Shown piece by piece: positions 33,449 to 46,348 of a DNA stretch of 64,000 bases (positions within the stretch are counted from its first letter, which is position 1; each line of letters opens with the position of its first letter). Under the pieces are notes generated by a model that did no database searches, was not told where the DNA came from, and worked only from the letters and a program-made list of their open reading frames with translations. The DNA is from Pseudomonas putida (GTDB lineage Bacteria; Pseudomonadota; Gammaproteobacteria; Pseudomonadales; Pseudomonadaceae), in the NCBI RefSeq assembly GCF_028682395.1, contig NZ_JANHLC010000004.1, forward strand, positions 310,001 through 374,000. Reading direction: 5' to 3'. The position numbers and the translations under genes were made by a program.

Positions 33449-34252
33449 TTAGCCCGCGTAATGCCCGCGCGCCCAGTCCAGCAGTCCTTCCAGCAATTGC
33501 CTGAGCACCGCCTGGGTCGGCGCCGCCAGGTCCGGCCGATAGCGGAACGGCTCGACCTCTTCCATATAGGTACTTTGCGCCAGCTCCAGCTGCACGGCGT
33601 GGATCTGCGCGGCCGGGGCGCCATAGTGCCGGGTGATATGCCCGCCCTTGAAGCGGCCGTTCAACACATGGCTGTAGGCAGGGTGCTGCGCGCAGATTGC
33701 CTCCAGCCGGCGGGCCAACTGCGGGTCACAACTGGCGCCATTGAACGTACCCAGGTTGAAGTCAGGCAGCTTGCCGTCGAACAGGTGGGGAATCAGCGAG
33801 CGGATCGAGTGGGCATCGAACAGCAAGGCATAGCCAAACTCGGCTTTGAGCCGCGCCAGCTCCTGGCGCAGGGTTTCGTGATAAGGCGTCCAGATATGCG
33901 CCAGGTAGCCGGCACGCGCTTCAGCCGACGGCACCCTGCCTTCGCGAAACAGCGGCACACCGTCGAACAGCGTGGCGGGATACAGCCCGGTGGTGGCGCC
34001 AACATATAAAGGCTGGTCATCGGCCGGGCGATTGAGGTCGATGACAAAGCGCGAGTACTCGCCAGCCAGGGTGCTGGCGCCCAGTTCGGCGGCAAATTCA
34101 TAGAGCAACGGGATATGCCAGTCGGTGTCCGGCAGGCTTGCAGCCTGTTCTATCAAACCAGCCTCGACAGCCGGGGTCAGGCGTACGCCCGCGTGGGGCA
34201 TGCTGATCAGCAAGGGCACGCGGCCCTGCTTGAAACTCAATACCGGGTCCAT
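33449..34252 (-). CDS. hutG: N-formylglutamate deformylase HutG
   Basis: The 267-residue enzyme (MDPVLSFKQGRVPLLISMPH) releases formate from N-formylglutamate, the last step of the five-step histidine route that uses HutF. Zinc-ligand candidates are in ISMPHAG and LLFDAHSIRS, and NGRFKGGHITRHYGAP is a family signature. AGGAG lies 7 bases before the ATG. It is the last gene of the hut operon, ten bases after hutI. Confidence 0.96.
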   Translation of the reverse strand: MDPVLSFKQGRVPLLISMPHAGVRLTPAVEAGLIEQAASLPDTDWHIPLLYEFAAELGASTLAGEYSRFVIDLNRPADDQPLYVGATTGLYPATLFDGVPLFREGRVPSAEARAGYLAHIWTPYHETLRQELARLKAEFGYALLFDAHSIRSLIPHLFDGKLPDFNLGTFNGASCDPQLARRLEAICAQHPAYSHVLNGRFKGGHITRHYGAPAAQIHAVQLELAQSTYMEEVEPFRYRPDLAAPTQAVLRQLLEGLLDWARGHYAG

Positions 34253-34262
34253 GGGGACTCTC

Positions 34263-35468
34263 CTAGATCAGTACTTCGCGGCCATGGCGCACGATGCGTT
34301 TCTCCAGATCACCGCCCAGCCAGTAGGCCAGGTCCGCCGGGCGCTCGATCCTCCAGGCGACAAAGTCGGCGACCTTACCCACCTCCAGCGAACCATGGGT
34401 TGCGCCCAAGCCCAGGGCCGTGGCGGCATGCTGAGTGACACCCGCCAGCGCCTCCTGCGGCGTCAGGCGAAACAGCGTGCAGGCCATATTCAGCATCAGA
34501 CGCAACGACAGCACCGGTGAAGTGCCGGGGTTGAGGTCACTGGCAATCGCGATTTTCACCCCATGCCGACGCAGGGCGTCCATCGGCGGCAAGCGGGTTT
34601 CGCGCAGAAAATAGAACGCCCCCGGCAACAGGACCGCGACCGTGCCGGCCTGCGCCATGGCCACGGCATCCGCCTCGGTCATGAACTCCAGGTGATCCGC
34701 CGACAGTGCCTGGTAGCGCGCCGCCAGGCTGGAGCCATGCAGGGACGACAGCTGTTCGGCGTGCAACTTGACCGGTAGGCCCAGCTCCCGCGCCGCAATA
34801 AATACCCGCTCGACCTGAGCCGGTGAAAAGGCCAGGTGCTCGCAGAAGGCATCCACCGCATCGACCAGCCCCTGCGCCGCCAGGGCCGGGAGCATCTCGG
34901 TGCAGATATGCTCGATATAGTCGTCGGCACGCTCGGCGTATTCGGGCGGTAGCGCATGGGCGGCCAGGCAGGTACTGCGCACCGTCACCGGCAGCACCTC
35001 GCCCAGGCGGCGGATAACCCGCAGCATCTTGCGCTCATTGGCCAGGTCCAGCCCGTAGCCGGACTTGATCTCGACCGTGGTCACGCCTTCACGCAACAAG
35101 TTGTTCAGGCGCTGGCAAGCACTGCTGAACAACTCGTCCTCACTGGCCGCACGCGTGGCTCGCACGGTACTGGCGATGCCACCACCGGCGGCGGCAATCT
35201 CGGCATAGCTGGCACCTTGCAGGCGCTGCTCGAACTCCGCGCTGCGGGTGCCGCCAAACACCGCATGGGTGTGGCAATCGATCAGCCCCGGGGTGACCCA
35301 GGCGCCGTCCAGATCCTCGACGAGCCCATAGTCGTCTGCGGGCAGCTCGCTTCGCGGGCCGATCCATTCGATCTGCGTCCCGCGGGTCACTATCGCAGCA
35401 TCCTCGATCATCGAGTAACTGCCTTGGGCCATGCTCGCCACATGGCAGTTGTGCCAGAGCGTCTTCAT
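34263..35468 (-). CDS. hutI: imidazolonepropionase HutI
   Basis: The 401-residue amidohydrolase ([20 protein letters not shown]) hydrolyses imidazolone-5-propionate to formiminoglutamate, the third step of histidine breakdown. Metal ligands lie in [20 protein letters not shown], and substrate or metal contacts in [18 protein letters not shown] and [17 protein letters not shown] lies 8 bases before the ATG. Confidence 0.97.
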
Positions 35469-35503: not shown

Positions 35504-37036
35504 TTACAAACTGGGCAACAGTTGCGCCGGTACCAGCGCATTCAGGCAGCGGGAGGCCAGCAGTTGCCCGGCCGCCTCGATATCCGGGGCGAAGAAACGA
35601 TCCTTGTCGTAGTACGCAACCTTCTCGCGCAGCACTGCCCGGGCCTGCTCAAGACGGGGTGAGGTCTTCAGCCCCGCACGCAGGTCCAGGCCCTGGCAAG
35701 CGGCAAGCCACTCCACAGCCAGGATCACCCGGGTGTTTTCGGCCATTTCCCAGAGACGCTTGCCGGCCGCCGGGGCCATGGACACATGGTCTTCCTGGTT
35801 GGCCGAGGTGGGCAGGCTGTCGACACTGTGGGGATGGGCCAGGGCCTTGTTCTCGCTGGCCAGCGCGGCCGCGGTGACCTGGGCAATCATAAAGCCGGAG
35901 TTGACCCCGCCATTGGCCACCAGGAACGGCGGCAACTGGGACATATGTTTGTCCATCATCAACGAGATCCGTCGCTCGCTCAGCGAGCCTATCTCGGCAA
36001 TGGCCAGGGCCAGGTTGTCGGCGGCCATGGCCACCGGCTCGGCATGGAAATTCCCCCCGGAGAGCACATCCCCCTCGGCGGCAAAGACCAGCGGGTTATC
36101 CGAGACGGCGTTCGCCTCGACAGCCAGCACCTCGGCGGCCTGGCGCAACTGGGTCAGGCAGGCCCCCATCACCTGTGGCTGGCAGCGCAGGGAGTAGGGA
36201 TCCTGGACCTTGTCGCAGTTCTGGTGGGACGTCGAGACTTCGCTGCGCTCGCCCAGCAGGTGGCGATAGCTGGCCGCCGCATCGATCTGCCCGCGCTGGC
36301 CGCGGGCCGCATGAATGCGTGCATCGAAGGGCGCACGCGAGCCCAGTACCGCCTCGACGGTCAGGCTGCCGCAACTCAGCGCGGCGGCGAACAGGTCTTC
36401 ACCCTCGAACAGCCCACGCAGGGCAAACGCCGTGGAGACCTGGGTGCCGTTCAACAAGGCCAGGCCTTCCTTGGCCGCCAGCGTCAGCGGTTGCAGGCCG
36501 GCCTGCTTCAGCGCCGTCGGCGCATCCAGCCACTGCCCCTGAAAACGCGCCTTGCCTTCGCCCAGCAGTACCAGCGACATATGGGCCAGCGGCGCCAAGT
36601 CACCAGACGCCCCCACCGACCCCTTGAGCGGAATATGCGGATAGACCTGGGCATTGATCAACGCGATCAGCGCATCGATCACCTGCCGACGGATCCCGGA
36701 AAAGCCCCGGCTCAAGCTGTTGACCTTGAGCACCATGATCAACCGCACCAAGGCATCGCTGAGCGGCTCGCCAACGCCGGCGGCATGGGACAGCACGAGG
36801 GAACGCTGGAGATTTTCCAGGTCTTCGCGGGCAATCCGCGTCGAAGCCAGCAAGCCAAAACCGGTGTTGATGCCGTAGGCGGTGCGATTTTCGGCCAGGA
36901 TCTGCTCGACACAGGCCACGCTCGCGTCGATGGGCGCCGCAGCGCTGGCATCCAGACTCAGTTGCAGCGGCTGCTGATAAATAGCGCGCAGTTGGGCAAG
37001 GCTTAGCTGGCCGGGAATCAGGGTTAGCGCAGTCAT
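35504..37036 (-). CDS. hutH: histidine ammonia-lyase HutH (MIO-containing)
   Basis: The 510-residue enzyme converts histidine to urocanate and ammonia. ATG 37036 ([20 protein letters not shown]) has AAGGAG seven bases upstream; the open frame continues to 37303, but only into the neighbouring gene. Ala143-Ser144-Gly145 in [13 protein letters not shown] forms the MIO electrophile. Other active-site residues of the P. putida enzyme are seen: Tyr54, His84, the NGTQ Asn, the QDPYSLR Gln/Tyr/Arg and the QEDH Glu. This is the catalytically complete copy of the tandem pair; its start lies 10 bases after the stop of the paralogue. Confidence 0.97.
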
Positions 37037-37046
37037 CTTGTGCTCC

Positions 37047-38570
37047 TTATCGCAGATTCGGTAACAGCAATGCCAGAGATTGAGGGTCCTTGAGAATGGC
37101 CGCACTGCGGGCAATATCCGGCGCCAGCCAGCGATCCTGCTCATACGCAGGTACATGCTCGCGCAGCAGACGCCAGGCCAGCGCCGTGCCGGCACCGAAG
37201 CCCTGCTCACGCAGAAACTCGAAGGCCTGGGCCGCCAGCAGGTATTCGATGGCAAGGATCTGCGTGCAGTTTTCCAACAGTTGCAGCAACTTGAGCGCGG
37301 CATTGGTTCCCAGGCTCAAGTGATCCTCCTGCAGCCCCGATGTGACGTAATTGTCCAGGACTGCGGGTTGGGCCAATTGGCGGTTCTGCGCGCACAGCGA
37401 CGCGGCCACGTACTGGACAATCATCATCCCGGAGTTAACCCCCGGCTGGCTGACCAGAAACGCCGGCAGGCCGCTGACATGGGGATTGATCAGGCGATCC
37501 AGGCGACGCTCGGCAATCGAGCCGATTTCCGCCATGGCCATGGCCAGCAGATCGGCCGCCATGGCCACCGACTGGCCATGAGGATTGGCCTGGGACACCA
37601 CCCGATAGTGTTCCGGGGTGCCAAGCAGCATGGGGTTGTCGGTGACGGCATTGAGCTCGGTTTCGATCTGCACCCGTGCGTGCTCCAACTGGTCACGGGC
37701 TGCGCCGTGAACCTGCGGGATCGAACGGATACTCAAGGCGTCCTGGGTGCGGATGCCCTGGCTGGCGGCAATCACCTCACTGTCCGCCAACAGCGCCCGC
37801 AGATTCTCGCCGACCACCTGCATGCCTCGATGGGGTTTGAGGGCAATGATCTCGGCATCGAAGGCGGCGATCTGGCCGCGCTGGGCCTCGAAACTCATGG
37901 CGCCGATCACGTCGGCCCATTGCAGAAGGTGAGTCGCATCAGCCAGGGCCAGGCAGCTCAGGCCGGTCATGCAGGGCGTGCCATTGACCAGGCACAGGCC
38001 GTCCTTGGCTCCCAACTGCGCAGGCGCCAGGCCTTCGGCGGCCAGCGCCTGCTCTGCCGGGACGATCTGCCCCTGGTAGCTGACCTGGCCCACGCCGAGC
38101 AGGGTGATGCCGATATGCGCCATATGGGTCAGGTAGCCGACCGAACCCTGGGACGGCACCTGTGGCGTGATACCCCGGTTGAGCAACGCCAGCAGGGCCT
38201 CGACCACCGAGCGCTGAATACCCGATTTGCCCTGGCTGTAATTGGCGATGGCGGCGCACATGATGGCCCGCGTCTGTTCGTCGCTCAGCACCGGGCCGAC
38301 GCCGCAGGCATGGCTGAGCAGGGTATTGCGCGACAACTGGGCCAGTTGTTCCTGTTCCAGTGACACATTACATAAGGCGCCCAGGCCGGTATTGACCCCA
38401 TAAGCTCGCTCGCCACTGGCAACGATGCGCCGGACAATGGCCTGGGCATTTTCGATCCGAGCCCAGACCGGGTTCGACAGCGCCAAGGGCGCGCCGTGAC
38501 GGGCGACTGCCACCACATCCTGCCAGCGCAGTGGCGCCTCGGCGATTAAGACTGTTTCAACCAACGACAT
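37047..38570 (-). CDS. HutH-like aromatic amino acid lyase paralogue lacking the MIO triad
   Basis: The 507-residue protein starts at ATG 38570 ([20 protein letters not shown]), with GAGGG 8 bases upstream. It is collinear with HutH throughout, but reads [14 protein letters not shown] where HutH reads [17 protein letters not shown]. The three residues that cyclise into MIO are precisely missing, between Gly145 and Tyr146. The active-site Tyr of QDPYSLR is Leu here (QDALSIR), and the Phe after DNP is Leu (TDNPMLL). Tyr57, His87, Asn196 and the QEDH Glu remain. Ordinary ammonia-lyase chemistry is therefore unlikely. P. fluorescens hut loci are described with two hutH genes, only one of them needed for growth on histidine; this is probably the dispensable type. 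Confidence 0.9.
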
Positions 38571-38627: not shown

Positions 38628-39458
38628 TTATTCGATGGTCGCGACCCGTCGCTGGACAAACCGATCGACGTACTCGTCGGCCGGCGTATGGAGAATCTCC
38701 CGCGGCGTGCCGACCTGGATCAGTCGACCGTCCTTGAGAATCGCGATGCGGTTGCCGATGCGCACCGCCTCGTCGAGGTCATGGGTGATGAAGACAATAG
38801 TCTTGTGCAGGGTCTTCTGCAGCTCGAGCAACTGGTCCTGCATTTCGGCGCGAATCAGTGGATCGAGGGCACTGAATGCTTCGTCCATCAGGATGATGTC
38901 GGTGTCGGCCGCCAGGGCCCGGGCCAGGCCAACCCGCTGGCGCATGCCGCCGGACAGTTGGTGCGGATACTTCTTTTCGTAGCCCTTGAGGCCTACGGTA
39001 TTGATCCAGTGCTGGGCGCGCTCGCCGCAATAGGCCTTGCTCTCGCCCCGAACCTTGAGGCCATAGGCGACGTTGTCCAGCACGCTCTTGTGCGGCAACA
39101 GGCCGAAGCTCTGGAAGACCATGCTGATCTTGTTGCGCCGAAACTGGCGCAGGGCTTCCATGTCGTATTGCAGGATATCCACACCGTCCACCAGGATCGC
39201 TCCGCTGGTGGGGTCGATCAGGCGGTTGAAATGGCGGACCAGGGTCGACTTGCCGGAGCCGGACAGGCCCATGATCACGAAGATCTCACCGGTACCAATG
39301 GTCAGCGATAAGTCATTGACCCCAACCACGCAGCCGGTGGCGGCCAGCACCTGGTCCTTGCTGCTGTTCTGGCGAATCATCGCCAGGGCCTCATCGGCGC
39401 GGGCGCCGAAGATCTTGAAGACATTGCGCACTTCGATCTTGCTACTGGCCTCACTCAT
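38628..39458 (-). CDS. hutV: histidine ABC transporter ATP-binding subunit HutV
   Basis: The 276-residue ATPase belongs to the quaternary amine (ProV/OpuAA) family, recognisable by the N-terminal extension (FKIFGARADEALAMIRQ) before Walker A GLSGSGKST. Signature SGGMRQRVGLARALA and Walker B DIILMDEAFSALDPLIR are present. Unlike osmotic ProV proteins it stops soon after the ATPase core without tandem CBS domains. It overlaps hutW by 4 bases. Context and the HutXWV precedent suggest histidine or urocanate uptake. Confidence 0.9.
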   Translation of the reverse strand: MSEASSKIEVRNVFKIFGARADEALAMIRQNSSKDQVLAATGCVVGVNDLSLTIGTGEIFVIMGLSGSGKSTLVRHFNRLIDPTSGAILVDGVDILQYDMEALRQFRRNKISMVFQSFGLLPHKSVLDNVAYGLKVRGESKAYCGERAQHWINTVGLKGYEKKYPHQLSGGMRQRVGLARALAADTDIILMDEAFSALDPLIRAEMQDQLLELQKTLHKTIVFITHDLDEAVRIGNRIAILKDGRLIQVGTPREILHTPADEYVDRFVQRRVATIE

Positions 39459-40306
39459 TTGCTCACCTCATGTCGCGGGCGACCATACGCCTGGGTAATG
39501 CGGTCGATGACCACGGCAAGAATCACAATCGCCAGGCCGGCCTCGAGCCCACGTCCGACGTTCAGAGTCTGGATACCCACCAGCACATCTTCACCCAGGC
39601 CACGGGCCCCGATCATCGAGGCGATCACCACCATCGACAGCGCCATCATGGTGGTCTGGTTGATCCCGGCCATGATGCTCGGCAGCGCCAGTGGCAACTG
39701 CACGCCGAACAACTGCTGCCAGCGGTTGGCGCCAAAGGCGTTGATCGCCTCCATCACCTCGCCATCGACCTGGCGAATCCCCAGGTCGGTCAGGCGGATC
39801 AGGGGCGGCGCGGCATAGATCACCGTGGCGAAGATTGCCGGAACCTTGCCCAGGCCGAACAACATCAGTACGGGAATCAGGTACACGAAGCTGGGCATGG
39901 TTTGCATGATGTCGAGCAACGGCATCAGCACCGAGCGCAACCGATTGCTGCGGGCCGACAGAATGCCCAGGGGGATGCCGATCAGGACCGAAATCAGCGT
40001 CGCCACCAGCATCAACGCCAGGGTCTGCATCAGCTTGTCCCAGAGCCCGACCGCGCCGACCAGAAACAGCAGGCCGACAATCACGGCAGTGGTCAGCAGC
40101 TTGCGCGTGGCGTGCCAGGTGATCCCGCCAACGATGGCCAGCATCAGCCACCAGGGCGCCATGCGCAGCAGCCCTTCCAGGTTGACGATGGCCCACAGCA
40201 GGGTGTCGGAGATGTGTCGGAACACATCGCCGTAGTTGGTCACCAACGAGTCAACCCAGGCGTTGACCCAGTCGGCGATGGAGAAGGTGAAACGTTCGGG
40301 AAACAT
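39455..40306 (-). CDS. hutW: histidine ABC transporter permease HutW
   Basis: The 283-residue ProW-like permease (MFPERFTFSIADWVNAWVDS) has an N-terminal segment and about six membrane helices. The conserved loop NAFGANRWQQLFGVQLPLAL contacts HutV. The sequence LDIMQTMPSFVYLIPVLMLF is typical of the quaternary amine permease family. Neighbouring genes assign it to histidine import. Confidence 0.9.
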   Translation of the reverse strand: MFPERFTFSIADWVNAWVDSLVTNYGDVFRHISDTLLWAIVNLEGLLRMAPWWLMLAIVGGITWHATRKLLTTAVIVGLLFLVGAVGLWDKLMQTLALMLVATLISVLIGIPLGILSARSNRLRSVLMPLLDIMQTMPSFVYLIPVLMLFGLGKVPAIFATVIYAAPPLIRLTDLGIRQVDGEVMEAINAFGANRWQQLFGVQLPLALPSIMAGINQTTMMALSMVVIASMIGARGLGEDVLVGIQTLNVGRGLEAGLAIVILAVVIDRITQAYGRPRHEVSK

Positions 40307-40350: not shown

Positions 40351-41319
40351 CTACAGCGCTGCGTCGATTTTCTTCGCAGCATCCTCACTGACCCAGGCGT
40401 GCCAGACCTCTGGATGCTCCTTGAGAAAGAGCTTCGCCAGCTTGGGCGACTCGATGCGCTCCCGGGTCATGCGGGCCAGGTTCTGATTGAGCAGGTCGAT
40501 CGGCAAGTTGGCTTTTTCCAGCACCGCCACCAGCTCGGGCGCCTCGTCATGGAAGGTCTTCGACAGGCCGACCTTGATGGTCACGGTCTTGTCGACACCC
40601 GGTTTTTCATCGAGCTTGACCAGCTCGACCTGGCCCATTAGCGGTGTTGGCGACCAGTAATAGAACAGGATCGGCTCGCCGCGCTTGTAGCTCGACAGCA
40701 CCGCAGCATCCAGCGCCGGGCCGGTGCCCGGACGGAAGTTGGTGTAGCTGCCTTCAAGGCCGTAGCGCTTGAGCATCTCGCTGTTGTCCAGCTCACAGGT
40801 CCAGCCGGCGGGGCAATTGTAGAAGCGGCCTTTGCTCGGTTCTTCCTGGTCCTTGAACACCATGGCGTAGCGGCTCAGGTCGGCAATGCTCTTGAGGTCC
40901 GGGGCCTTGGCTTCGAGCTTGCGCTTGGCATCGCCTTCGATCACATAGCGCGGCACATACCAGCCTTCGACCGCCCCCACCACCGGCGCACCGACACCCA
41001 CGACCTTGCCGGCCTTCTCGGCCTTCTTCCAGACCTCGCTGCGCCCGACCCACTCTTCGGCAAAGACCTGGATATCATTGCTGCTCAGTGCGTTTTCCAT
41101 GGTGATGGAGTTGCCCGGCAGGCTATCGGTCTTGCAGTCGTACCCCTTGTCCAACACGATCTGGAGGATATCGGTGAGCAGCATGCCGCTTTCCCAATTC
41201 AGGCCGGCAAACTTCACCGGCTTGCCGGACTCGCACCAGCCCGCAGCCTGGCTCGCGCCAACGCTGCCCAAAAGGCCTAGGGAAACAAACGTGGTCAGCA
41301 GGGTCTTGGTCATTCTCAT
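40351..41319 (-). CDS. hutX: histidine ABC transporter binding protein HutX
   Basis: The 322-residue protein has a signal peptide (MTKTLLTTFVSLGLLGSVGASQAA) and an OpuAC-type substrate-binding domain with scattered Trp and Tyr that form the aromatic box (FAGLNWESGMLLTDILQIVL, EGWYVPRYV, ILFYYWSPTPLMG). AGGAG lies 9 bases before the ATG at 41319; the ATG at 41313 is an alternative. It is first in hutXWV, downstream of hutU. Confidence 0.9.
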   Translation of the reverse strand: MRMTKTLLTTFVSLGLLGSVGASQAAGWCESGKPVKFAGLNWESGMLLTDILQIVLDKGYDCKTDSLPGNSITMENALSSNDIQVFAEEWVGRSEVWKKAEKAGKVVGVGAPVVGAVEGWYVPRYVIEGDAKRKLEAKAPDLKSIADLSRYAMVFKDQEEPSKGRFYNCPAGWTCELDNSEMLKRYGLEGSYTNFRPGTGPALDAAVLSSYKRGEPILFYYWSPTPLMGQVELVKLDEKPGVDKTVTIKVGLSKTFHDEAPELVAVLEKANLPIDLLNQNLARMTRERIESPKLAKLFLKEHPEVWHAWVSEDAAKKIDAAL

Positions 41320-41458: not shown

Positions 41459-43159
41459 TTAGTTCCCGGTAATCATTGGCAGGTTCAGCCCCTGCTCTTT
41501 GGCGCAATCAATCGCAATCTGGTAACCCGCATCGGCATGGCGCATCACCCCGGTGGCCGGATCGTTATGCAGCACCCGGGCAATGCGCGCGGCCGCCTCG
41601 TCGGTGCCGTCGCAGACAATCACCATGCCCGAATGCTGGGAGAAGCCCATGCCGACGCCACCGCCGTGGTGCAGCGAGACCCAGGTCGCGCCGCTGGCGG
41701 TATTGAGTAAAGCATTGAGCAGCGGCCAGTCGGAGACCGCATCGGAACCGTCCTGCATCGACTCGGTTTCCCGGTTGGGGCTGGCCACGGAACCGGAGTC
41801 CAGGTGATCGCGACCGATTACGATGGGAGCCGATAGCTCGCCACTGCGCACCATCTCATTAAAGGCCAGGCCCAGCTTGGCGCGCAGGCCCAGGCCGACC
41901 CAGCAGATACGGGCCGGCAGGCCCTGGAAGCTGATGCGCTCGCGGGCCATGTCGAGCCAGTTGTGCAGGTGGGCATCGTCGGGGATCAGTTCCTTGACCT
42001 TGGCGTCGGTCTTGTAGATGTCCTGCGGGTCGCCGGACAGCGCCGCCCAACGGAACGGGCCAATCCCCCGGCAGAACAGCGGACGAATGTAAGCTGGGAC
42101 GAAACCTGGGAAATCGAAGGCGTTTTCGACCCCTTCCTCCTGAGCCATCTGGCGGATGTTGTTGCCATAGTCAAAGGTCGGAATGCCCTGCTTCTGGAAG
42201 TCGAGCATCGCACGCACATGCACGGCCATCGACTGCTTGGCGGCCTTGACCACGGCGGCCGGCTCGGTCAGGGCGCGGGCGCGGTACTCGTCCCAGGTCC
42301 AGCCGGCAGGCAGGTAACCATTGAGCGGATCGTGGGCGCTGGTCTGGTCGGTGACCATGTCCGGGCGCACGCCACGCTTGACCAGCTGCGGCAGAATTTC
42401 GGCGGCATTGCCCAGCAAGGCGACGGAAATGGCCTTGCCTTCGCGGGTGTAGCGCTCGATGCGCGCCAGGGCGTCGTCCAGGTCAGCGGCCTGTTCGTCG
42501 ACATAACGACTGCTCAGGCGGAAATCGATACGGCTCTGCTGGCATTCGATATTCAGCGAGCTGGCCCCGGCCAGGGTCGCGGCCAGTGGTTGCGCGCCGC
42601 CCATGCCGCCGAGACCGGCGGTCAGGACCCAGCGCCCCTTGAGGTTGGCGTCATAGTGCTGGCGGCCAGCCTCGACGAAAGTTTCGTAGGTGCCCTGGAC
42701 GATGCCCTGGCTACCGATATAGATCCAACTGCCGGCGGTCATCTGGCCGTACATTGCCAGGCCCTTGGCATCCAGTTCGTTGAAGTGTTCCCAAGTGGCC
42801 CAGTGCGGCACCAGGTTGGAGTTGGCAATCAGCACGCGCGGCGCATTGCTGTGGGTCTTGAATACGCCGACCGGCTTGCCGGACTGCACCAGCAGGGTTT
42901 CGTCGTCGTTCAGTTGGGTCAGGCTTTCGACAATCTTGTCGTAGCATTCCCAATTGCGTGCGGCCCGGCCGATCCCGCCATAGACCACCAGTTCGTTGGG
43001 GTTCTCGGCGACCTGTGGGTCGAGGTTGTTCATCAGCATCCGCAGGGGGGCTTCGGTCAGCCAGCTTTTGGCAGTCAGGGTGTTACCCCGGGCGGCACGG
43101 ATTTCACCAGCGCGGTGGGTGGTAAAAGTGGCGGTCGATTTCTGGCTGTTGTCGGTCAC
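41459..43159 (-). CDS. hutU: urocanate hydratase HutU
   Basis: The 566-residue NAD-dependent enzyme converts urocanate to imidazolone propionate. GTG 43159 ([20 protein letters not shown]) is chosen because AGAGGAG lies 7 bases upstream. Family motifs include [20 protein letters not shown], the NAD-binding [15 protein letters not shown], the Cys in [13 protein letters not shown] and [19 protein letters not shown] sigma-54 type promoter and a HutC operator lie 134-167 bases upstream. Confidence 0.98.
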
Positions 43160-43556: not shown

Positions 43557-44132
43557 TCAGGCCGCCGTCAACTCGACCACGCAGCAACGTCCGGTCAGGG
43601 CCAGTTCCTGCAACCCCGGGTTGCCTTCGATCTGCAGGCAATCGTGCCGGCCCAGCAATTCGTAGCCGCTATTGCCCAGCCCGACATGCAGTTGGTCGGC
43701 GACACTGAAGACCAGCACCACATCGGCCGAACTGAACAGGCGCTGCTGCCCGCCATCCAGCCATTGCAGGCGGGCGCGGAAACGATCCGGGGCATAGATC
43801 AGGTTGAAGTCGCGAATCGGCCCGTTCAGCAAGGCACACCCCACCTGGCTGGCACCGTTGAAGGCAAAGGCATCGAGCGGCAGCAAGGCCCGCGTGACCC
43901 GGCCGTCGACCCGCAAGGTCATCCCGGCCCCCTGGAGCACCGTGATGATCCGCTGATAGCCGGCAAAGCTTGAGAAACCGCCCGACTCGCTGATATCGGC
44001 AATCGACAGGCGCCAACCAAAACCTTCCAGGCCTTCGCCAGTATCACGGGTGATTTCCTCGGTGCTACCGCCGCCGTTTTTCCACGGCATACGCGCGTAA
44101 TCAGCGGCGCGCAGTACTTTCAACTGGCTCAT
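43557..44132 (-). CDS. hutD: HutD family protein, histidine utilisation regulator/governor
   Basis: The 191-residue bicupin-type protein (MSQLKVLRAADYARMPWKNG) shows the HutD signature WKNGGGSTEEITRDTGEG and FGWRLSIADISESGGFSSF. In P. fluorescens HutD is proposed to set an upper limit on hut expression by sensing a pathway product; its biochemistry is unsettled. It overlaps hutC by 4 bases (ATGA). Confidence 0.93.
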   Translation of the reverse strand: MSQLKVLRAADYARMPWKNGGGSTEEITRDTGEGLEGFGWRLSIADISESGGFSSFAGYQRIITVLQGAGMTLRVDGRVTRALLPLDAFAFNGASQVGCALLNGPIRDFNLIYAPDRFRARLQWLDGGQQRLFSSADVVLVFSVADQLHVGLGNSGYELLGRHDCLQIEGNPGLQELALTGRCCVVELTAA

Positions 44133-44878
44133 TTACTGAAGCGTCCTTCCAGACGGTGACGGGAACCGGGGTGGATCAAGCGCGCCGCCGTCACTGGCTG
44201 GCGCCCTGACCAGGTGCGACGGCGAATCAGCAAGCAGGGTTCGCCGCGCTCGATCTGCAGCAGACTGCACTCTTGCGGCTCGGCCAGAATCGCCTCGACC
44301 ACATGCTCACCCTCGGTCAACGGGGCGACCTGGGACAGGTAGGCATAAGGGGTTTGCAGGGTGAAATCCTGTTTGAGGTAGTCCGGAGCGATCTGTGCAT
44401 TGACGAAGCGATCCTCGATCTGCACCGGGATATCGTTTTCAAAATGCACGATCAGCGAGTGGAATACCCGCTGCCCTTCGCGCATATCCAACGCCAGCGC
44501 GCGCTCGGAACCTGCGGCCTCCTCACCCAGGCTGACCACCCGGCAGGTATGGCGATGACCGCGCGAGGCGATCTCATCGGCAATATTGTGGACTTCGAAC
44601 AGGGCCGACTGGCTCTTGGGTTCGGCGACGAAGGTTCCGACGCCCTGCATCCGGACCAACAGGCCTTCGGCGGTCATTTCCCGCAGGGCGCGGTTGATGG
44701 TCATACGGCTGAACCCCAACTGGCTGACCAGTTCACTCTCCGACGGCACGCGGTAGTGTGGCGGCCAGTTTCCGCTTTCGATTTGCTGGGTGATCATCTG
44801 CTTTACACGGGCATACAGCGGCGCCGGACTGTCACCCAGGTGGGCAGCCAGCGAGGAAACGGCAGGCGGAGTCGGCAC
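44129..44878 (-). CDS. hutC: histidine utilisation repressor HutC (GntR family)
   Basis: The 249-residue repressor starts at GTG 44878 (MPTPPAVSSLAAHLGDSPAP), with AAGGA 7 bases upstream. The N-terminal winged helix is YRVPSESELVSQLGFSRMTI and NRALREMTAEGLLVRMQGVG. The C-terminal UTRA domain (HIADEIASRGHR-type region, IPVQIEDRFVNAQIAPDYL) binds urocanate in characterised members. It is divergent from hutF and followed by hutD. TGTA-N2-TACA sites occur at 44949 and 43295. Confidence 0.96.
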   Translation of the reverse strand: MPTPPAVSSLAAHLGDSPAPLYARVKQMITQQIESGNWPPHYRVPSESELVSQLGFSRMTINRALREMTAEGLLVRMQGVGTFVAEPKSQSALFEVHNIADEIASRGHRHTCRVVSLGEEAAGSERALALDMREGQRVFHSLIVHFENDIPVQIEDRFVNAQIAPDYLKQDFTLQTPYAYLSQVAPLTEGEHVVEAILAEPQECSLLQIERGEPCLLIRRRTWSGRQPVTAARLIHPGSRHRLEGRFSK

Positions 44879-44948
44879 GGGAAATCCTTGTTCGAATTTA
44901 AAGAGGGCTAGCTTGCCGGAGTTTACCGAGCAGGCAAACGTCTGTATA

Positions 44949-44958
44949 TGTATATACA
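44949..44958. promoter_or_regulatory. HutC operator between hutC and hutF
   Basis: TGTATATACA fits TGTA-N2-TACA exactly and is preceded by another TGTA at 44943. It lies 26 bases before the hutF ATG and 71 bases before the hutC GTG, so it could control both genes, including autoregulation. The hutC/hutF gap (44879-44983) shows no clear -35/-10 pair. Confidence 0.8.
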
Positions 44959-44983
44959 AATAAACACGATGGGGTGCCGAACC

Positions 44984-46348
44984 ATGTCCGCCTTCTTTGC
45001 CGAGCGCGCTTTACTGCCGAGTGGCTGGGCCGCCAATGTCCGCTTTGAGGTGGACGCCGACGGCACGCTCAGCAGTATCCTGACCGACGCCAGCGCCCAC
45101 CATGCCGAGCGCCTCAACGGACCGGTCCTGCCCGGCATGCCCAACCTGCACTCCCATGCGTTCCAGCGGGCCATGGCCGGGCTGGCGGAGGTGGCCGGCA
45201 ATCCCAATGACAGCTTCTGGACCTGGCGCGACCTGATGTACCGCCTGGTCGGCAAGATCACCCCCACGCAACTGGGCATCATCGCCCGCCAGCTGTATAT
45301 CGAAATGCTCAAGGCCGGCTACACCTCGGTCGCCGAGTTCCACTATGTCCATCACGACCACAACGGCCAGCCTTACGCCGACCGCGCGGAGCTGGCCCTG
45401 CAAATTAGCCAGGCCGCCCGGTGCGCCGGGATCGGCCTGACCCTGCTGCCGGTGCTGTATAGCCACTCGGGCTTTGGCGGCCAGGCGCCGAACGCTGGCC
45501 AACGCCGTTTTATCAACAGCACCGATGCCTACCTGCGCCTGCAGGACGCTCTGCGGCCGGTCCTGGCAACACAACCGGCGCAGGCGCTCGGGCTATGCTT
45601 TCACTCCCTGCGGGCGGTAACGCCGCAGCAGCTCGAGACCGTGCTGGCGGCCAGCGACCCCCACTGCCCAGTGCATATCCATATTGCCGAGCAGCAGAAG
45701 GAAGTCGATGACTGCGTGGCCTGGAGCGGCACGCGCCCGCTGCAATGGCTCTACGACAATGTCGAGGTCGATCCACGCTGGTGCCTGGTCCACGCCACCC
45801 ATGCCAACCCTGAAGAAGTCAGCCTGATGGCCCGCAGCCAGGCCGTTGCCGGCCTGTGCCTGACCACCGAAGCCAATCTGGGCGATGGCATCTTTCCCGC
45901 CGTGGACTTCCTGGCCCAAGGCGGACGCATGGGCATCGGTTCCGACAGCCATGTATCGCTGAGTGTGGTCGAGGAGTTGCGCTGGCTGGAATACGGCCAG
46001 CGCCTGCGCGATCAGCGACGCAACCGCCTGTATCGGGGCGACCAGCCGATGGTCGGGCGCACGCTGTACGACGCCGCACTGGCTGGCGGCGCCCAGGCGC
46101 TTGGCCAACCGATTGGCAAGCTGCAGGTCGGCCAGCGCGCCGACTGGCTGGTGCTGGATGGCAACGATCCCTACCTGGCAACAGCCGAAGGCGATGCCAT
46201 TCTCAACCGCTGGTTATTCGCCGGCGGCGATCGTCAGGTCAGGGATGTACTGGTCAATGGCCGCTGGGTCATACGCGACGGTCATCATGCCGACGAAGCG
46301 CAAAGCAGCCAGGCGTTCACCCAGGTACTGCGCGAGCTGCTGGGCTGA
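44984..46348 (+). CDS. hutF: formimidoylglutamate deiminase HutF
   Basis: The 454-residue amidohydrolase starts at ATG 44984 (MSAFFAERALLPSGWAANVR). It deiminates formiminoglutamate to formylglutamate, the substrate of HutG. Metal ligands are in PGMPNLHSHAFQRAMAG, VHATHANPEEVSLMARS and MGIGSDSHVSLSVVEELRW. Presence of HutF with HutG shows that the five-step route to glutamate is used. It is transcribed away from hutC, with a HutC site in the gap. Confidence 0.96.
   Translation: MSAFFAERALLPSGWAANVRFEVDADGTLSSILTDASAHHAERLNGPVLPGMPNLHSHAFQRAMAGLAEVAGNPNDSFWTWRDLMYRLVGKITPTQLGIIARQLYIEMLKAGYTSVAEFHYVHHDHNGQPYADRAELALQISQAARCAGIGLTLLPVLYSHSGFGGQAPNAGQRRFINSTDAYLRLQDALRPVLATQPAQALGLCFHSLRAVTPQQLETVLAASDPHCPVHIHIAEQQKEVDDCVAWSGTRPLQWLYDNVEVDPRWCLVHATHANPEEVSLMARSQAVAGLCLTTEANLGDGIFPAVDFLAQGGRMGIGSDSHVSLSVVEELRWLEYGQRLRDQRRNRLYRGDQPMVGRTLYDAALAGGAQALGQPIGKLQVGQRADWLVLDGNDPYLATAEGDAILNRWLFAGGDRQVRDVLVNGRWVIRDGHHADEAQSSQAFTQVLRELLG

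Follow-up and report, generated by a model that had tools for sequence, protein, structure and literature searches.

In a 64,000-nucleotide stretch of a Pseudomonas putida genome (contig NZ_JANHLC010000004.1, positions 310,001 to 374,000 of the forward strand; hereafter the window), the hut operon for histidine degradation encodes two neighbouring proteins of the histidine ammonia-lyase (HAL) family: a canonical HutH, and a paralogue of the hutH1 type that lacks the Ala-Ser-Gly triad from which the electrophilic cofactor 4-methylideneimidazole-5-one (MIO) is formed. The paralogue belongs to a real, conserved MIO-free HAL subfamily and is neither a product of decay nor peculiar to its source genome. 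Judged from sequence and gene context, it is probably a MIO-free lyase that converts imported hercynine (Nα-trimethylhistidine, histidine betaine) to urocanate and trimethylamine, hercynine being the substrate that we infer. Whether the clade as a whole constitutes a widely distributed and hitherto unrecognised family of hercynine trimethylammonia-lyases, coupled to three unrelated transporter types, which would give many soil and plant bacteria a trimethylamine-releasing hercynine-to-urocanate branch of the hut pathway and some species their sole entry to that pathway, is a broader proposition that we regard as evenly balanced.

Active Site of the Paralogue

The aromatic amino acid lyase domain (PF00221) spans the full paralogue (E 7.7e-165), and the protein passes the broader NF006871 subfamily model (546.7 bits vs a cut-off of 524) but stays just under the cut-off of the hutH equivalog model TIGR01225 (536.3 vs 539.15 bits). 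Its MIO region reads GSVGYLTH, in which Tyr146 alone stands in place of ASGD of the neighbouring HutH. An initial annotation of the sequence had described a precise deletion of Ala-Ser-Gly; the net loss of three residues and the junction at 38135/38136 are right, but a Tyr has taken the place of the four residues and the Asp after the triad is thus changed as well. The catalytic residues corresponding to Tyr280 and Phe329 of P. putida HAL (PpHAL) are also missing, and Leu279 and Pro330 occupy their positions. The former change, from QDPYSLR to QDALSIR, had been recognised correctly. A second replacement reported earlier, of the Phe after DNP, does leave a Leu in the paralogue but does not concern the catalytic Phe, as PpHAL Phe329 (in GGNFHAEP) aligns with Pro330. 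The paralogue retains Tyr57, His87, Asn196, Gln276, Arg282 and Glu415, in agreement with the annotation for the four of these that it had listed (Tyr57, His87, Asn196 and the Glu). By the roles of their PpHAL counterparts, Tyr57 is the base, and Glu415 and Arg282 provide the imidazole and carboxylate contacts.

The same pattern holds across the clade. In an alignment of 119 clade members with 103 HutH and 9 ergothionase-like proteins (the numbering of the window HutH is that of PpHAL plus one), Tyr57 is present in 118/119 clade sequences, and His87, Asn196, Gln276, Arg282, Met383 and Glu415 each in 119/119. Relative to the window HutH, Tyr281 is replaced by Leu and Val387 by Tyr in 119/119, and Phe330 by Pro (101) or Ala (18). 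Among 250 distinct HAL-family sequences, which include the 119 clade members, QD-x-LS-x-R occurs in all 119 of these, and a Tyr occupies the site in all 104 MIO-type sequences whose motif is readable (102 plus L164 and L165, counted as canonical; 13 MIO-type rows have no readable QD motif, and 5 cut-off rows without the motif were set aside). Membership of the clade was itself defined by the triad motif, which leaves the counts for Leu279, Tyr387 and the pocket as the only ones independent of the selection. Leu is found at the same site in 17/17 sequences from a later draw.

Conservation, Selection and Spread

The degenerate motif is present in 80/80 loci of a genome scan (the best 80 of 448 relatives, all titled Pseudomonas; three are contigs of one strain), which excludes sequencing error or chance, and none of the 80 genes has an internal stop. 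The median ratio of nonsynonymous to synonymous substitution rates (dN/dS) is 0.080 for the paralogue vs 0.045 for canonical HutH, calculated on the same 75 loci in which a full-length canonical HutH lies beside the paralogue (2772 usable pairs each, 3 of 2775 having been filtered out). A pseudogene or a sequencing error is ruled out by the motif and this median, so the initial judgement that the gene is not simply decaying was sound, and the loss of the triad marks out a conserved clade that is under purifying selection, a point left earlier to an alignment of the paralogues.

The exact degenerate motif occurs in 275/398 genomes of Pseudomonas. Triad loss extends beyond the genus to an Erwinia plasmid (70% identity), Burkholderia, Rhizobium, Sinorhizobium and further proteobacteria; proteins annotated as histidine ammonia-lyase, for example on plasmids of Erwinia, Burkholderia and Rhizobium, thus lack the cofactor-forming residues that the name implies. 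In addition, matches to the paralogue occur in 10 records filed as phages, with 60-80% identity in one of them; these may represent host DNA in phage records.

Linkage to Transporters and Urocanase

Gene context was read at 110 loci (that of the window, 80 from the scan and 29 more), of which two have no upstream DNA, leaving 108. An ATP-binding cassette (ABC) ATPase gene lies directly upstream on the same strand in 104/108 paralogue loci vs 0/89 canonical HutH genes in the same loci. The ATPase is of the HutV type at 86 loci and of the polar-amino-acid type at 18; the 25 found among the 29 other loci comprise 7 and 18, respectively. In L148 and L149, a betaine/carnitine/choline transporter (BCCT; PF02028) stands upstream instead of the ATPase. 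In a wider draw of the family of L149, the paralogue is found in 17/201 genomes with a BCCT transporter directly upstream in 16/17 loci (PF02028 was scanned on three loci, the remainder being called by similarity).

The paralogue is likewise associated with the urocanase gene hutU, which is present in 27/27 carriers vs 149/370 other genomes (Fisher p 8.7e-11; species not independent). This draw of 397 genomes contains 27 carriers, three further genomes having matched through ordinary HutH, and the paralogue and hutU draws are taken as the same 397 genomes from like settings and the listed handles. Furthermore, the Burkholderia module consists of an ABC transporter, the paralogue and a HutC-type repressor, and several rhizobia have their own divergent hutC paralogue at the MIO-less gene. 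HutC-type repressors respond to urocanate in Pseudomonas, according to the accessible part of PMC8871633.

A MIO-free lyase acting on some other pre-activated histidine derivative (imidazolelactate, Nα-acyl or less methylated histidine), and still yielding urocanate, would have the same linkage to a transporter and hutU. The polar-amino-acid transporters at 18 loci speak for such an enzyme, and the N-methyl amino-acid oxidase gene (solA) downstream of the paralogue in several rhizobia would fit other methylation states. However, the BCCT transporters at 16/17 loci of one family point to a quaternary amine, and the MIO-free relative of known activity, ergothionase, expels trimethylamine (PMC13405746, accessible part), so that we find this alternative doubtful. 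A flavin adenine dinucleotide (FAD) oxidoreductase with a GCV_T folate domain, resembling dimethylglycine dehydrogenase, is encoded at L087:9032-11593, with relatives in L154, L157, L158 and L162; in several Rhizobium and f42 loci, such a gene lies near the MIO-less gene on the opposite strand.

Genomes Lacking a Recognised Canonical HutH

In five of the 17 genomes (G691, G946, G829, G925 and G863; completeness 96-100%), canonical HutH was not found, and the remaining 12 match the window HutH at 53-79% identity. The five loci have the order hutU-BCCT-paralogue-hutI, with hutU, hutI and hutF all present, and the other HAL-family genes of these genomes are of a third, MIO-bearing type, joined in G691 by an ergothionase-like gene. 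An earlier draw found canonical HutH (51-83% identity) in 19/20 carriers outside Pseudomonas.

The initial annotation had proposed that the paralogue is a catalytically dead partner of HutH in a heterotetramer, or a histidine or urocanate sensor. The loss of the triad and the catalytic Tyr from an otherwise kept pocket, the adjoining hutH in the window and the dispensability of hutH1 for growth on histidine (PMC8871633, accessible part) are consistent with such a role, and HutH in 19/20 carriers outside Pseudomonas is what a partner role would predict. Nevertheless, it is disfavoured by the five genomes in which canonical HutH was not found, by the linkage to a transporter and not to HutH, and by transporter-paralogue pairs that lie apart from other hut genes, as with hutXWV and the paralogue of P. 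soli and of two further Pseudomonas (L063 and L078); the base Tyr57 is also retained in all but one clade sequence. We therefore consider a sensor or partner role unlikely. In the stretches of L063, L078 and L083, hutXWV and the MIO-less gene stand alone with the other hut genes absent, and L083 has a divergent LysR-like open reading frame (ORF; by eye).

The paralogue might instead deaminate histidine itself, slowly and without MIO, since the hut operons of the five genomes show no other HutH-like enzyme for entry. Yet canonical HutH is retained by 19/20 carriers outside Pseudomonas, and the S153A substitution that blocks MIO formation in a related phenylalanine ammonia-lyase nearly abolishes activity, as stated in the available part of PMC3903478; we regard a MIO-independent histidase as highly improbable.

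Phylogeny, Fold and MIO-Free Relatives

In a 58-protein tree (L195 and five near-duplicate HutH rows omitted), the paralogue clade (23 rows) forms a single branch with support of 100/99, and the clade and the ergothionase-like rows lie on one side with all MIO types opposite (98/91; 96/91 without the motif columns). On this unrooted tree, a single loss of MIO for the clade and the ergothionases is possible. The ergothionases lost the triad in another way, as their motifs differ from that of the clade: the T. denticola ergothionase reads SSIG-EGD and QDPLSFR, and a relative whose gene neighbours that of a thiourocanate hydratase has GSIG-CAD and QDPLSLR.

An AlphaFold2 model of the paralogue adopts the HAL fold over its whole length and matches ergothionase (Z 38.4) and PpHAL (Z 38.5) equally well, with HALs at Z 38-41; this is a monomer model of mean predicted local distance difference test score 80.1, several active-site loops falling under 50, in which pocket geometry is not resolvable. 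Structures of PpHAL Tyr280 and Phe329 mutants are among its matches in the PDB.

Ergothionase of the L139 type is present in 5/22 carriers searched, and in the same five genomes another HutU-like gene lies within a few kilobases of it (two, in G503 and G440, score over the thiourocanate hydratase cut-off and three were judged by their similar TIGR01228 scores). Because ergothionase pairs with the second HutU-like gene in 5/5 cases, the paralogue clade probably has a different substrate with a product fitting ordinary HutU; the two enzymes appear to coexist and feed different hydratases, and ergothioneine is disfavoured as substrate of the paralogue by their co-occurrence.

Several further MIO-less genes were observed. 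At L149:4910-6445, an ergothionase-like gene (GSLGAAD, QDPLSYR) lies beside an OpuAC-type glycine-betaine-binding protein (L149:3978-4865) and an ABC permease. Other ergothionase-like genes (L196, L197, L198 and L201; GSIGA[AG]D) occur in three f42 genomes, two of which (G648 and G812) also have the L139-type ergothionase, and the substrates may differ. Genome G458 encodes a triad-less variant (L270:11455-13023, = L195:4455-6023) that reads GSVGYLGPEGH and keeps the Tyr (QDTYSLR). Beside it are genes for a reductase, a Rieske oxygenase (VanA_C), a polar-amino-acid-type binding protein and a zinc alcohol dehydrogenase, which together might form a methylhistidine pathway that works by N-demethylation.

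A Proposed Hercynine Lyase Reaction

We propose that the paralogue is an entry enzyme of the hut pathway acting on an imported Nα-quaternary histidine, most likely hercynine. The hutXWV transporter, with its betaine-type binding protein, would deliver the substrate, and trimethylammonium would be a leaving group good enough to make MIO unnecessary. Tyr57, Glu415 and Arg282 would be kept for their base, imidazole and carboxylate roles, the loss of MIO, Tyr280 and Phe329 would give space for the bulky NMe3+ group, with Tyr146 and Tyr387 perhaps serving as a cation-binding wall. The resulting urocanate would be degraded by HutU, HutI, HutF and HutG. A product that enters ordinary HutU would have an unsubstituted imidazole, pointing to hercynine and not ergothioneine, and a quaternary amine agrees with the betaine-type HutX (OpuAC) and the BCCT transporters. 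To our knowledge, the MIO-free chemistry known in the HAL fold is trimethylamine loss. By analogy, the absence of MIO need not mean absence of catalysis: ergothionase belongs to the same family, has no MIO and is a lyase that cleaves ergothioneine to trimethylamine and thiourocanate (PMC13405746, accessible part).

Several points weigh against the hercynine reading. The clade is without the Lys common to all 9 ergothionase-like proteins, which leaves the argument from a shared mechanism incomplete. Changes of PpHAL Tyr280 and Phe329 strongly lower activity, and the loss of both residues would also fit a dead enzyme. The transporter at 18 loci is of the polar-amino-acid and not of the betaine type, although in rhizobia, Burkholderia and Erwinia such transporters are neutral as to a quaternary amine substrate. 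Three loci have no transporter directly upstream: L147 has a LysR-type gene there, L160 none of the reference genes, and in L225 the nearest recognised upstream gene is hutU. The median dN/dS is somewhat higher for the paralogue than for canonical HutH, and when the long-branch L195 is included in the tree (13 clade rows), the split between triad-less and MIO-bearing proteins weakens to 87/81, with the order among the triad-less rows, and thus the place of L195, open. Finally, HutXWV of P. fluorescens SBW25 is reported to have a part in histidine uptake (PMC8871633, accessible part), which speaks somewhat against a betaine-only role.

The hercynine reading offers a testable answer to what role hutH1 has, given that growth on histidine reportedly does not require it. 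Should hercynine be the substrate, the clade would add a route of hercynine catabolism and another bacterial origin of trimethylamine, and would be a second MIO-free subfamily for studying how a family of enzymes loses the electrophile it carries. The literature searched yielded no report of a hercynine lyase and none of a HutH naturally devoid of MIO, most subscription papers being beyond reach.

Gene Organisation in the Window

The hut operon of the window (Table 1) runs on the minus strand in the order hutC, hutD (by position), hutU, hutX, hutW, hutV, paralogue, hutH, hutI and hutG. The paralogue starts 57 bases past the end of hutV and its stop lies 10 bases before the start of hutH. Elsewhere in the source genome, a third HAL-family gene (L003, C34:274980-276362) has an intact triad but reads QDRYSLR, a type also seen in L193, L194, L199 and L200.

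Table 1. Coordinates of the paralogue, its diagnostic codons and neighbouring hut genes in the window
Feature	Position	Strand	Basis
MIO-less HAL-family gene, hutH1 type, 507 aa from ATG	37047-38570	-	ORF list, family models, clade analysis
Tyr146 codon, in place of MIO-forming ASGD	38133-38135	-	Alignment; Tyr in 119/119 clade sequences (classed by this motif)
Leu279 codon, PpHAL Tyr280 site	37734-37736	-	Leu in 119/119 clade and 9/9 ergothionase-like; Tyr in 103/103 HutH
Tyr387 codon	37410-37412	-	Tyr in 119/119 clade; Val in 103/103 HutH; Lys in 9/9 ergothionase-like
Canonical MIO-type HutH (hutH2)	35504-37036	-	768 bits NF006871; 737 bits TIGR01225
HutV, ABC ATPase of choline/betaine/proline type, directly upstream of paralogue	38628-39458	-	TIGR01186 over cut-off
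HutW, ABC permease	39455-40306	-	Best models choline/betaine type, below their cut-offs
HutX, periplasmic binding protein with OpuAC glycine-betaine-type domain	40351-41319	-	PF04069 E 1.1e-58
HutU urocanase	41459-43156	-	TIGR01228
HutI imidazolonepropionase	34263-35468	-	ORF; similarity to annotated hutI of other loci
HutG N-formylglutamate deformylase	33449-34252	-	TIGR02017
HutC repressor	44129-44920 scanned, ORF to 44959	-	TIGR02018 over cut-off
hutF, assigned ORF	44948-46348	divergent from hut operon	

Comparison with Known Systems

The paralogue sits immediately after hutXWV and before hutH, the position of hutH1 in P. fluorescens SBW25, where the order is hutXWV-hutH1-hutH (PMC8871633, accessible part, which mentions neither triad loss nor an alternative substrate for hutH1); the two are equated by gene order only. 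In Pseudomonas sp. J380, both hutH copies and hutU are up-regulated under iron limitation, as described in the accessible part of PMC8069873.

Canonical HutH shares with the paralogue the full-length fold, 39-40% identity, the His, Asn, Gln, Arg and Glu pocket residues and the hut operon. The paralogue differs from it in having no Ala-Ser-Gly, Leu for Tyr280, Pro or Ala for Phe329 and Tyr for Val387.

Ergothionase (PDB 6s7j/6s7q), like the paralogue, has the HAL fold without MIO, a Leu at the Tyr280 site, and the base Tyr together with the Gln, Arg and Glu. However, the ergothionase type retains an Asp and has one residue fewer than HutH in the motif (SSIG-EGD), whereas the clade has a single Tyr for ASGD, and the Lys that marks all 9 ergothionase-like proteins corresponds to Tyr387 throughout the clade. 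Furthermore, L139-type relatives lie near a thiourocanate-hydratase-like gene, whereas the clade goes with ordinary HutU; indeed, the source genome shows one HutU-type match, which is the ordinary HutU.
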